64,000 nt of DNA from Phenylobacterium sp. (GTDB taxonomy: Bacteria; Pseudomonadota; Alphaproteobacteria; Caulobacterales; Caulobacteraceae): positions 1-64,000 of the forward strand of contig NZ_JAUSCJ010000004.1 of assembly GCF_030651185.1 (NCBI RefSeq), read 5' to 3'. Below are positions 48,950 through 53,903 of this stretch, one piece after another. The translations under genes were made by a program, and so were the position numbers. The notes beneath the pieces were generated by a model. The model searched no databases. It saw only the letters and a program-made list of their open reading frames with translations, and was not told the origin of the DNA. Position 1 is the stretch's first letter; every line of letters begins with the position of its first letter.

Positions 48950-50485
48950 ATGGCTGCGCGGGTCGTCACGCTGGCGTTTCAAGGGGTTGAGGCCCGGCGG
49001 GTCGATGTCGAGGTGCAGCTCACCGGCGGCGAGTTCGCCTTCATCCTGGTCGGTCTCGGCGACAAGGCGGTGGGCGAGAGCCGCGAGCGGGTGCGGGCGG
49101 CCTTCTCCGGTCTCGGCCTGTCGCTGCCGGGCAAGCGGATCATCGTCAACCTGGCGCCCGCCGACCTGCCCAAGGAGGGCAGCCACTACGACCTGCCCAT
49201 CGCGCTGGCCGTCATGGCCGCCATGGGCATTATTCCCCCCGACCGGCTGACGGAATGGGCGGCCATGGGGGAGCTTTCCCTCGACGGCCGCATCGTCCAG
49301 GTGGCCGGCGCCCTGCCGGCTTCCGTGGCGGCCGGCGCCCTGGGCCTGGGCCTCATCTGCCCCGAGGCCTGTGGGGCGGAGGCGGCCTGGGCTGGCGACA
49401 CCCAGATCCTGGCGGCGCCCTCGCTGATCTCCCTGGTGAACCACTTCCGCGGGACCCAGATGCTGTCACCGCCCAAGCCCGGCGCGATCCTCGACGGCGA
49501 GCGGGTCCCCGACCTGCGGGAGGTGAAGGGCCAGGAGAACGCCAAGCGCGCCCTGGAGATCGCCGCCGCCGGCGGCCACAACCTGGCCTTCACCGGACCG
49601 CCGGGCTCGGGCAAGTCGATGATGGCCGCCCGCCTGCCGGGCTTGCTGCCGCCGCTGTCGCCCGCCGAGCTGCTGGAAACCTCGATGATCCATTCGGTGG
49701 CCGGCCTCATCGCCAAGGGCGAGCTGACGCGGGCTCGGCCGTTCCGCACTCCGCACCATTCGGCCACCATGGCGGCCCTGACCGGCGGCGGGGTCCGCAT
49801 CAAGCCCGGCGAGGTGTCCCTGGCCCACAACGGGGTGCTGTTCCTGGACGAGCTGCCGGAGTTCTCGGCCCAGGCCCTGGATTCGTTGCGCCAACCCCTG
49901 GAGACCGGCGAGGTGGTGGTGGCCCGCGCCAACGCCCACGTCCGCTATCCGGCCCGCTTCCAGCTGGTGGCCGCCCAGAACCCCTGCAAGTGCGGCCACG
50001 GCGGCCCCGGACGCGGGGCCTGCGGCCGCGCCCCGCGCTGCCAGACCGACTATCAGATGAAGGTCTCCGGCCCCTTCCTGGACCGCATCGACCTGCAGAT
50101 CGACGTGCCGGCGGTCAGCGCCGCCGACCTGGCCCTGCCCGCCCCATTGGAGGGCACGGCGGAGGCCGCCGCCCGGGTGGCCCAGGCCCGCGACCTGGCC
50201 GCCGAACGCGCCGCGGCCTCTGGCCATGAGCGCGCCGAGCCGATCAACGCGCGGGCGGAAGGCGACTGGCTGGAAACCATCGCCGACCTGGATGCGCCGG
50301 CCAAGGCCCTGCTGGCCAAGGCCGCCGAGGCCAATCGCCTGACCGCCCGGGGCTGGACGCGCACCCTGCGCCTGGCCCGCACCATCGCCGACCTGGAGGG
50401 CGGGGGCGCTATCAGGCGGGTCCACGTCGCCGAGGCGCTGATCTATCGGCGGGTGGGCGCAGGCGGCCTAAGTCCGGTGGGCTAG
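48950..50485 (+). CDS. comM: YifB/ComM family Mg chelatase-like AAA+ ATPase
   Basis: GPPGSGKSMMAARLPGLLPPLS...RPFRTPHHSATMAALTGGG...FLDELPEFSAQALDSLRQPLE. Confidence 0.93.
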   Translation: MAARVVTLAFQGVEARRVDVEVQLTGGEFAFILVGLGDKAVGESRERVRAAFSGLGLSLPGKRIIVNLAPADLPKEGSHYDLPIALAVMAAMGIIPPDRLTEWAAMGELSLDGRIVQVAGALPASVAAGALGLGLICPEACGAEAAWAGDTQILAAPSLISLVNHFRGTQMLSPPKPGAILDGERVPDLREVKGQENAKRALEIAAAGGHNLAFTGPPGSGKSMMAARLPGLLPPLSPAELLETSMIHSVAGLIAKGELTRARPFRTPHHSATMAALTGGGVRIKPGEVSLAHNGVLFLDELPEFSAQALDSLRQPLETGEVVVARANAHVRYPARFQLVAAQNPCKCGHGGPGRGACGRAPRCQTDYQMKVSGPFLDRIDLQIDVPAVSAADLALPAPLEGTAEAAARVAQARDLAAERAAASGHERAEPINARAEGDWLETIADLDAPAKALLAKAAEANRLTARGWTRTLRLARTIADLEGGGAIRRVHVAEALIYRRVGAGGLSPVG

Positions 50486-50902
50486 GCCGGCCCGTCGCTC
50501 GCGGTGCATGTTCCAGGCGCCGACCGCGAGGGCGCCCAGCACCAGATAGCTCCAGATCGCCAGGCCGCGGAAATAGGCCAGGGTGCGAACCCCGGGATCG
50601 ACGGCGATGGCGATGTGGGTGATCACCGCCAGCAGCTGGAAGGCGGCGGCGAACAGCAGCCAGGTTCGGTCGGTGGTGGCCGCGAACCAGACCAGCAGCA
50701 GCATGAACATCGCGTCCACGATAAAGACCCCCCACTGGGGATCCATCAGGGCGTTTCGGTAGGCGAGCGGGGTGAGGATCCAGGCCGCGAGGTTGGCCAT
50801 GGCGATGCTCCGCTCCGGCCCCGCGCCCCGCCACAGAGCAAGGCCGGAGACCAGGACCATCAGGACGATCCAGGTCTGTTGGGCGAGGGTGGCGAAGACC
50901 AA
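50468..50902 (-). CDS. Hypothetical membrane protein
   Basis: 144-aa ORF with about four TM segments, MVFATLAQQTWIVLMVLVSGLALWRG... Confidence 0.6.
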   Translation of the reverse strand: MVFATLAQQTWIVLMVLVSGLALWRGAGPERSIAMANLAAWILTPLAYRNALMDPQWGVFIVDAMFMLLLVWFAATTDRTWLLFAAAFQLLAVITHIAIAVDPGVRTLAYFRGLAIWSYLVLGALAVGAWNMHRERRAGLAHRT

Positions 50903-50971: not shown

Positions 50972-51334
50972 TTAGGCGGCGCGCGCAGCCCGGGCCACGG
51001 CGCGCAGGTCGCGCGCGCCGTCGGCGATCATCTGCGGCTTGGGCAGGGAGTCGCCGTACATCACCGCGCCCAGGCCCATCTGCTTCTGGGCGATGCTGAG
51101 CTCCATATGGGTCTCGCAGATGGCGCGCCGGGCGGTGGCGAGCGCGGCGAAGGCCTCGCCGGCCCGTTCCACGGCGCCCTGGCCGATGAGCGCCGAGATG
51201 CCGGCCTCGGTGCGCAGGCCCGGCATGATGCCGGCCAGGGCGGCGGCCTTGGCCAGGGCCAGGTCGATGGCGGCCTCGGCTTCGAAGAGGCTGGCGGCGA
51301 CTTGGTCTGCGACCAGGCGGCGTTGCTTGAGCAT
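50972..51334 (-). CDS. Hypothetical protein
   Basis: 120-aa ORF MLKQRRLVADQVAASLFEAEAAIDLALAKAAALAGIMPGLRTEAG..., helical, natural composition. Confidence 0.65.
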   Translation of the reverse strand: MLKQRRLVADQVAASLFEAEAAIDLALAKAAALAGIMPGLRTEAGISALIGQGAVERAGEAFAALATARRAICETHMELSIAQKQMGLGAVMYGDSLPKPQMIADGARDLRAVARAARAA

Positions 51335-51403: not shown

Positions 51404-52180
51404 CTAGGCGAGGTCTTGCAGGGCGTGCAGGCCGGCCAGCATCCCCCCGAAAGCCAGGGCGGTGATGATGGCGATCAGACCGATCAGCCCCAGTCGGGCG
51501 GCGGGACCTAGGGCATTTCGGCCGATCCCTCCTGAGGGGGCTGGAAGCCCTCGTCCAACAGCGCCCAGGTCATGCAGAGGATTTCGCGCAGGACCATTTC
51601 CGGCGGCTTGAAGTGCGACATCTTGGCCGTGGCCGAGACCAGGTCCCGGGCCATCGCCGCCTTGGCCGGACACCCCGCCAGATCGGCCAGCTGGCGCTCC
51701 AGCTGGCTCCAGGTGAAGCCCGGGGCCTGAAGCCCCTCGGCCCGCATCTCCGGCCAGCGGGCCTGGAAGGCGTCCACCTCCTGGCCCAGCCGCATCACCC
51801 GGTTCACCGCCGCCCTCTGCTCCTGGCCTTCCCAGTCCGGTTGGGACGGGTCCACCTCGAGCAATGCTTTCATCCAATCGGCCATCGGCCTGTCCTCCCG
51901 TGTCGCCCCAAGGAGGGACCGCGGGAGGACGGCTGTCTGTCCTGATCGGATCGTGTCCTGACGCGATCAGGACACCGCGGTCGTGGTCGGCAAGGCGCCG
52001 CGCGGCTTCGTAGCGGTCGTCGACCCCCAGCTTGCGGCGCGCGCGGTCGCAATAGGTGTCGACGGAGGTCTTGGACATGCCCAGCTCGCGGGCGATCTGC
52101 TTGGAGCTCAGGTGCCGGTCCACCAGCCGCAGACATTCCCGCTCGCGCGGGGTCAGAAGCTCGACGGGATCTTCGGTCAT
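51404..52180 (-). CDS. LuxR-type HTH ORF with C-terminal TM segment; central linker overlaps another ORF
   Basis: N-term MTEDPVELLTPRERECLRLVDRHLSSKQIARELGMSKTSVDTYCDRARRKLGVDDRYEAARRL; C-term ARLGLIGLIAIITALAFGGMLAGLHALQDLA; open throughout. Confidence 0.65.
   Translation of the reverse strand: MTEDPVELLTPRERECLRLVDRHLSSKQIARELGMSKTSVDTYCDRARRKLGVDDRYEAARRLADHDRGVLIASGHDPIRTDSRPPAVPPWGDTGGQADGRLDESIARGGPVPTGLGRPGAEGGGEPGDAAGPGGGRLPGPLAGDAGRGASGPGLHLEPAGAPAGRSGGVSGQGGDGPGPGLGHGQDVALQAAGNGPARNPLHDLGAVGRGLPAPSGGIGRNALGPAARLGLIGLIAIITALAFGGMLAGLHALQDLA
51508..51885 (-). CDS. 125-aa hypothetical protein, overlapping the HTH-TM ORF in another frame
   Basis: MADWMKALLEVDPSQPDWEGQEQRAAVNRVMRLGQEVDAFQARWPEMRAEGLQAPGFTWSQLERQLADLAG...; RBS ggaggacaggccgATG; natural amino-acid composition. 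Confidence 0.65.
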   Translation of the reverse strand: MADWMKALLEVDPSQPDWEGQEQRAAVNRVMRLGQEVDAFQARWPEMRAEGLQAPGFTWSQLERQLADLAGCPAKAAMARDLVSATAKMSHFKPPEMVLREILCMTWALLDEGFQPPQEGSAEMP

Positions 52181-52406
52181 TTCCTGTGCTCGCCCATAAG
52201 GTGGGTAGTTAAAAGCCCCCGCGGAGTTTCGTCCAGGCGTAACCTCCTCGCCGGCGACGTTCCGCTTATGCATCAGGCATTTGCGGCGCCAGGGCCGGAC
52301 CCAAAGACCGCCGTTCTCCCACGCCAGAAAGTTGCAGCTTCGCCGGAAGACGGGCGTTGTCCGCCGCTTGACCGCCCGTTAAGCCGCCGGCGCCTAAGCT
52401 TGCTCC

Positions 52407-53903
52407 ATGGCCCGCAAGCACACGACCCCCAACCTTCCCGACGCCCGCGTTAGCGCCGAGCAGCTCGCCTCGCTCAGCCACGAATTCCGCACGCCCCTCA
52501 ATGGCGTGCTGGGGATGGCGCGCCTGCTGGAGGGCACCGGCCTCACCGCCGAACAGAAAGCCTATGTGTCGGCCCTGCGGGAGTCCGGCGAGCACCTGCT
52601 GAGCCTGGTCAACGACGTGCTCGATTTCGCCAAGCTGGGCGCCGACAAGATCGAGCTGCATCCCGCCACCATGGACGTCGAGGGCCTGCTGCGGTCGGTG
52701 AGCGAACTGCTATCGCCGCGCGCCCAGGAAAAGGGGCTGGAGATCGCCTGGGCCGCCCCCACCGGCATCGGCCAGGCCCTGGCCGACGAGGGACGCCTGC
52801 GCCAGATCCTGCTCAACTTCGCCGGCAACGCCGTGAAATTCACCGAAACCGGCGGCATCCTGCTGACCGTCGCCGAGCGCGACGGCTCGCGCCTGCGCTT
52901 CAGCGTCGCCGACACCGGTCCCGGCGTCACCCAGGCGGCGCGGGAGAAGATCTTCGAGGCCTTCGCCCAGGCCGACCCCTCCTATGACGGCGCCCAGCTG
53001 GGCGGCGCGGGCCTGGGCCTGGCCATCGCCCGCAAGCTGGCGACCGCCATGGACGGCGAGGTGGGCGTCGAGGACGCCCCTGGCGGCGGCGCGCTGTTCT
53101 GGTTTGAAGCGGCTTTCCCGCGCCTCACCGCCCTGGGCGAGGCGCCTCTGGCGGGCCGCACCGTGGGCGTGCTGTCTCCCAATCCCGTGGTCTGCGAGGC
53201 CGCGCGACGCCAGGTCGAGGCCGCCGGCGGCACGGCCGTGACGGGCGAGGACAAGAGCGCCCAGGTCCTGCTGGTGGACCATGCGCTCGCCCCCTCCTGC
53301 CCCCCCGACTCCCGCCCCGCCATCATCCTGCTGCCGCCCGGCGAGCGGGCCCGCATCGAGACCTACCGGGCCCAGGGCTTCGCCGGCTACCTGATCAAGC
53401 CCCTGCGCCGCGCCTCCCTGGCCGAGCGGGTGCTGGCGGTGCTGGGCGAGGGCGCCCACCGCGCCGAGAGCGCCGAGGACGAACGCATCGCGCCGGCCAT
53501 CGCGCCGGGCGCCCGGGTGCTGCTGGTGGAGGACAACGCCATCAACGCCCTGCTGGCCCGCACCCTGCTGGCCCGCGAGGGCTGCAAGGTCGACCACGCC
53601 GGCGGCGGAGAGGACGCCATGGCGGCCCTGAAGGTCGGGCGCTACGACCTGATCCTGATGGACATGCGGATGCCCGGCATGTCGGGGCTGGACGCCACGC
53701 GGGCCCTGCGCGCCGCCGGCCTGGACACCCCGGTGGTCGCGTTGACCGCCAACGCCTTCGAGGACGACCGCCACGCCTGCCTGGCGGCCGGCATGAACGA
53801 TTTCCTGGTCAAGCCCTTAGCGCCGGACGCTCTGCGCGGGATCCTGGCCAGGCTGACCCGCGGCGGCTGGACGGAAACGACGGACCGCGCCAAGGTCGGC
53901 TGA
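52407..53903 (+). CDS. Hybrid sensor histidine kinase/response regulator, soluble, no obvious input domain
   Basis: LSHEFRTPLNGVLGMARLLE H-box; GGAGLGLAIARKLATAMDGEV; C-terminal REC LLVEDNAINALLARTLL...LILMDMRMPGMSGLDATRALR. Confidence 0.94.
   Translation: MARKHTTPNLPDARVSAEQLASLSHEFRTPLNGVLGMARLLEGTGLTAEQKAYVSALRESGEHLLSLVNDVLDFAKLGADKIELHPATMDVEGLLRSVSELLSPRAQEKGLEIAWAAPTGIGQALADEGRLRQILLNFAGNAVKFTETGGILLTVAERDGSRLRFSVADTGPGVTQAAREKIFEAFAQADPSYDGAQLGGAGLGLAIARKLATAMDGEVGVEDAPGGGALFWFEAAFPRLTALGEAPLAGRTVGVLSPNPVVCEAARRQVEAAGGTAVTGEDKSAQVLLVDHALAPSCPPDSRPAIILLPPGERARIETYRAQGFAGYLIKPLRRASLAERVLAVLGEGAHRAESAEDERIAPAIAPGARVLLVEDNAINALLARTLLAREGCKVDHAGGGEDAMAALKVGRYDLILMDMRMPGMSGLDATRALRAAGLDTPVVALTANAFEDDRHACLAAGMNDFLVKPLAPDALRGILARLTRGGWTETTDRAKVG

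Follow-up and report, generated by a model that had tools for sequence, protein, structure and literature searches.

We describe a locus of the Caulobacteraceae in which a complete gene, B, is nested within a longer gene, A, on the same strand and one base out of phase with it. The reading that we consider highly probable is that of a conserved, fully nested same-strand pair consisting of a tethered regulator, A, and the nested B, including an interplay of both with the adjacent gene D1 that we infer. Sequence comparisons support well the view that the overprinting is true, old, and family-wide and that the shared DNA is dual coding; we put forward the regulatory mechanism as a hypothesis, and the functions proposed below are deduced.

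Results

The window, which is the whole stretch of 64,000 nucleotides of Phenylobacterium DNA that was analyzed, carries the locus on its minus strand, with the following features:

51404..52180 (–): gene A, LuxR/GerE HTH, disordered linker, and C-terminal TM helix, 258 aa (ORF list, Pfam GerE, AF2, open frame in 79/80 B-anchored loci)
51986..52168 (–): HTH domain of A, aa 5-65 (Pfam PF00196 at aa 8-61; pLDDT 86-97)
51935..51974 (–): 40-nt candidate cis element TGTCCTGA-N5-TCAGGACA-N8-TCAGGACAGAC, within A and upstream of B (near-invariant over 75 Phenylobacterium loci, frozen synonymous codons, palindrome unique per genome)
51922..51930 (–): 5' arm GTCCTCCCG, which could pair with the Shine-Dalgarno (SD) region of B (sequence and predicted fold; absent from the consensus fold of 75 loci)
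51892..51900 (–): 3' arm CGGGAGGAC, which holds the SD site of B (sequence; SD-like sites precede most B starts)
51508..51885 (–): gene B, nested orphan protein predicted to be all-helical, 125 aa, +1 relative to A (conserved family; five helices, pLDDT 87; no Pfam or PDB match)
51410..51505 (–): TM helix of A, aa 226-257, in the HTH frame and without a start codon of its own (AF2 helix, pLDDT 80-93; frame-A third-position variation)
50972..51334 (–): D1, conserved downstream partner gene, 120 aa (adjacency across loci; no Pfam, NCBIfam, or PHROG match)

Gene A starts with the ATG at 52180 and ends with the stop codon at 51404-51406; a longer mechanical ORF begins at 52273, and homologues favor the start MTEDPVELL. 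B (51508-51885) lies wholly within A (51404-52180), on the same strand and in another frame, and its ATG at 51885 is preceded by GGGAGGACAGGCCG, the ribosome-binding site that the original prediction had given. Re-reading of the sequence and the ORF list returned exactly the coordinates and both translations of that prediction, and also bore out its claim that TM coding begins a few codons after the B stop with no start of its own, the distance being about three codons without any ATG, GTG, or TTG.

The HTH of A scores 49.3 bits against Pfam GerE PF00196 (cut-off 23.5) over aa 8-61. In the AF2 model it reaches a pLDDT of 86-97 and the TM helix 80-93, and the Gly/Pro/Arg-rich linker of about 150 aa is modelled as disordered (pLDDT 41-56). 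Neither a receiver nor an autoinducer-binding domain, the traits of the NarL/LuxR subgroups, was found in A, for which only HTH families gave matches; by Pfam and AF2, what follows the HTH is the disordered linker and the TM helix only. A convincing match to the TM helix, or a close relative of the HTH, was not found elsewhere in the class. B forms a protein family with an invariant Trp and the conserved motifs LERQL and KPxEMVLREIL, and its AlphaFold model, a confident all-helical structure of five helices (pLDDT 87), indicates a folded helical protein. It had no match in Pfam, PDB sequences, PDB folds, or PHROGs. A profile search for free-standing B matched only two Caulobacteraceae among 385 genomes of the class, with none outside Caulobacteraceae in that set and none in plasmids. 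At one locus (L159, G203), what looks like a tandem pair of B-like domains occupies frame B, and frame A is open across both.

The nested layout is shared by relatives. A search based on A found matches in 79/101 Phenylobacterium genomes, and the frame runs stop-free from HTH to TM in all matches of the genus except two that are truncated, one that is broken, and one that has the HTH only; full-length relatives of A occur in further genera of the Caulobacteraceae, including Caulobacter. Because such a search favors an open frame A, we also ran a census anchored on B, in which 80 Phenylobacterium and Caulobacter loci were retrieved from GTDB contigs by B patterns alone. Frame A is open from the HTH past B in 79 of these 80 loci, the lone exception being C. 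vibrioides OR37, and B is always in +1. Of the 79 intact loci, 78 show the TM helix in frame with the HTH; in the remaining one it was undetected. Diverged paralogs have the same A/B layout. The original prediction had offered two explanations, an in-frame insertion into an HTH-TM gene or true overprinting; the latter is supported, and an isolated insertion in this genome or lineage is rejected in view of a layout that is near-universal among B-bearing homologues, paralogs included. It had also named the homologue pattern that would speak against it, an HTH frame ending before B with an unconserved TM segment, and only three damaged loci approach this.

In two of these three, OR37 (L140/L246) and G766 (L300), A is broken between the HTH and B, and B is intact; in the third, the MAG G033 (L029/L059), a single indel in the B region brings the C-terminal half of B into frame with the HTH. 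The broken A frames are either sequencing errors or true losses. OR37 and G766 have a C6 run at a place where most relatives have C7, possibly through slippage (a phase-variable tether) or sequencing error, and the indel of G033, a fragmented MAG, is likely an error or decay. A relative with HTH, short linker, and TM but no B also exists (L162, G020:C16), and no D1 was detected beside it. It is possible that this type pictures the state before overprinting, and an HTH-short-linker-TM ancestor may, long ago, have acquired B in its linker or given rise to it there.

By itself, the open frame A in this sequence is unremarkable and within chance: synonymous shuffling of B in this genome gives 0.86 frame-A stops on average, and 36% of the outcomes are stop-free. 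Across loci the picture differs, and the homologues decide the matter. When synonymous codons were shuffled with every B protein and its codon usage kept fixed, the overlaps of 129 loci, diverged paralogs included, were predicted to contain 229 frame-A stops; 0 were observed. These loci came from A searches, possibly favoring open frames, a concern that the B-anchored census covers for Phenylobacterium and Caulobacter. The probability of such stop avoidance is 10^-14.3 over 19 representatives below 50% B identity and 10^-23.7 over 27 representatives below 60%. No comparable depletion was seen in the third frame, C (529 stops vs 462 expected), or at the same offset in neighboring D1 (147 vs 166), the latter indicating that general codon-pair bias accounts for little.

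Codon positions tell which protein dominates where. Over 75 Phenylobacterium loci, variability among codon positions peaks at A3 (0.40) in the HTH, at B3 (0.35) in the overlap, and again at A3 (0.46) in the TM segment. For the window, GC3 reaches 0.92 in frame A of the HTH, 0.90 in frame B of the overlap, and 0.84 in frame A of the TM segment. The codon-position check proposed in the original prediction thus yields an A-B-A switch in both GC3 and substitutions. Among distant relatives, the amino acids of the A linker are no more conserved than an untranslated frame (identity excess 0.0375 vs 0.0388). Taken together, stop avoidance in A, and the variability of B3 with the conservation of the B family, show purifying selection on both frames. 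In the tether, selection keeps the frame open and leaves the sequence itself almost unconstrained; a tether held stop-free by selection would keep HTH and TM in one polypeptide.

Most loci have a B start codon with an SD-like site at the corresponding place. For C. crescentus, SD sites are reported to be poor predictors of initiation, with no more than 24.6% of CDSs carrying one (Schrader et al., 2014; PMC4117421). Between the HTH and B, the Phenylobacterium loci carry a near-invariant 40-nt stretch (75 loci), TGTCC[TC]GA-N5-TC[AG]GGACA followed by TCAGGACAGAC. Rare synonymous codons are frozen in it (GGA 75/75, ACA 75/75, AGG 74/75), the codon GTC is also kept in 75/75, and mean synonymous entropy is 0.32, vs 1.02 in the HTH. 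The palindrome halves vary together, with a joint T-A to C-G change in 14 loci and a broken pair in three. One copy occurs per genome, inside A, and genomes without A lack it. It is weak outside Phenylobacterium; a general palindrome was not found across all paralogs, and Phenylobacterium and one further group are the only ones to stand out. The element may act at the DNA level, as an operator/promoter, or as an RNA hairpin, and the published internal transcription start site (TSS) considered below favors the former. In predicted folds of the window and of several Phenylobacterium loci, the SD site of B pairs with the upstream GTCCTCCCG; RNAalifold did not recover this SD-masking hairpin as a consensus of the 75 loci.

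D1 adjoins A/B in 74/75 Phenylobacterium loci, in 23/23 loci of a second set (L108-L130), and in 28/34 loci of diverged types (L131-L164), and has no match in Pfam, NCBIfam, or PHROG. Next after it, several of the genomes read have an ORF of about 145 aa resembling a membrane protein; in the window, a second downstream gene without a known family occupies 50468-50902 (–). On the other side, a divergent hybrid histidine kinase with a receiver domain (52407-53903, +) adjoins A, and another of the Phenylobacterium genomes read (L268) likewise has such a kinase close to A.

Discussion

A unifying model is that A acts as a one-component regulator whose LuxR-type HTH would be anchored to the inner membrane through a TM helix and a long disordered tether, and that the same DNA, read one base on, would yield B, a folded helical protein with a start codon of its own inside A. 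The 40-nt element just upstream of B may be the operator or promoter region of a transcript of its own, and a hairpin may mask its ribosome site. A, B, and adjacent D1 would cooperate, A exerting local control over B, and B serving as a protein partner of A or D1. A more far-reaching version, in which the locus is a self-contained cassette across the Caulobacteraceae whose tethered LuxR-type A binds an operator in its own gene, controls an internal promoter for B, and was duplicated as a unit with D1, is possible, though we regard it as doubtful.

Frame A could also be a product of high GC content, in which case B and a gene for a short HTH protein would be real and the TM segment a chance reading or a remnant. 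The many synonymous shuffles in this genome that leave A open (36%) would fit, as would a Gly/Pro/Arg-rich linker conserved no better than an untranslated frame. However, none of the 229 expected stops is present, and the TM segment bears a frame-A codon signature and keeps the HTH frame in 78/79 intact B-anchored loci; with no stop codon in A, a ribosome starting at the HTH must reach the TM helix unless it shifts frame. We reject this account on the stop-avoidance test and give it a very slight chance. Such shifting, if programmed, could make one protein of three segments that abut, from the HTH into B by +1 and/or from B into the TM by –1. The C-run (usually C7) before B in Caulobacter group-I loci, C6 in two loci with broken A, and the joining of the HTH to the C-terminal half of B in G033 agree with it. 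Yet B carries a start codon of its own, in most loci together with an SD-like site, A is open throughout and needs no shift, and no common slippery site was noticed when the A-B and B-TM junctions were inspected by eye. In C. crescentus, moreover, the small CDS is reported on an internal transcript (PMC4117421). We judge programmed frameshifting improbable.

We assign a similarly small probability to the idea that the openness of A serves RNA or translation only, a continuous stream of ribosomes exposing the B start, and that the tethered protein is functionless. An unconstrained linker is compatible with this, and so is the pairing of the SD site of B with an upstream arm in the window and several Phenylobacterium loci, but that hairpin is not a consensus over the 75 loci, the HTH is highly conserved, and the TM helix is conserved as a protein past the end of B, where B can no longer gain from unwinding. 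A tethered regulator with a nested B is the reading that we retain.

A probable orthologue has been reported in a model organism. CCNA_00832 of C. crescentus comprises an 804-nt CDS and, on a transcript that begins at an internal TSS, a 360-nt CDS in the +2 frame; both CDSs yielded LC-MS peptides (Schrader et al., 2014, Fig. 4E; PMC4117421). In five C. vibrioides-clade loci (L238, L243, L270-L272; L273 and L274 seem to come from the genomes already represented by L238 and L243), A is exactly 804 nt and B 363 nt including the stop, that is 360 nt of sense codons, so that these loci have the sizes and frame given in the available part of that paper. A flagellin gene lies 8 kb away in one Caulobacter genome, whose neighborhood was looked at for the identity of CCNA_00832. 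CCNA_00832 is very probably the orthologue of the A/B pair, as matched by clade, exact size, and frame rather than by sequence. In its available part, the paper reports the gene as one example in one species and does not describe the HTH-tether-TM architecture, the family-wide selection, the paralogs, the cis element, or the D1 linkage. It lends A/B proteomic support through this probable orthologue.

The undescribed three-gene module of A, B, and D1, putatively regulatory, can now be tested directly in C. crescentus. Membrane-tethered one-component regulators of the CadC/ToxR type consist of a DNA-binding domain, a cytoplasmic linker, and a single TM helix, and A is like them in these three parts. 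However, A has a GerE/LuxR HTH in place of their OmpR-type winged helix, it ends right past the TM helix without their C-terminal periplasmic sensor domain, neither of these hallmarks being found in A, and its linker harbors another gene.

Nested genes are known from lambda Rz/Rz1 and B. subtilis srfAB/comS, in which a complete shorter gene lies inside a longer one, on the same strand and in another frame, and both are functional. To our knowledge, few cases in cellular bacteria are well supported, and many of the candidates are single-genome ORFs in GC-rich DNA. A/B, known here from sequence, is backed by a family-wide comparison, with stop avoidance near 10^-14 in distant representatives and paralogs of the same layout. 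It shares same-strand full nesting with lambda Rz/Rz1 and srfAB/comS and differs from them in that the arrangement persists, paralogs included, across a bacterial family and that the outer frame is apparently an unconstrained tether between two conserved domains. This structural division of labor, a disordered tether in one frame and a folded protein in the other, suggests one route by which two genes may occupy the same DNA with little conflict: the outer one codes for a tether whose sequence hardly matters.
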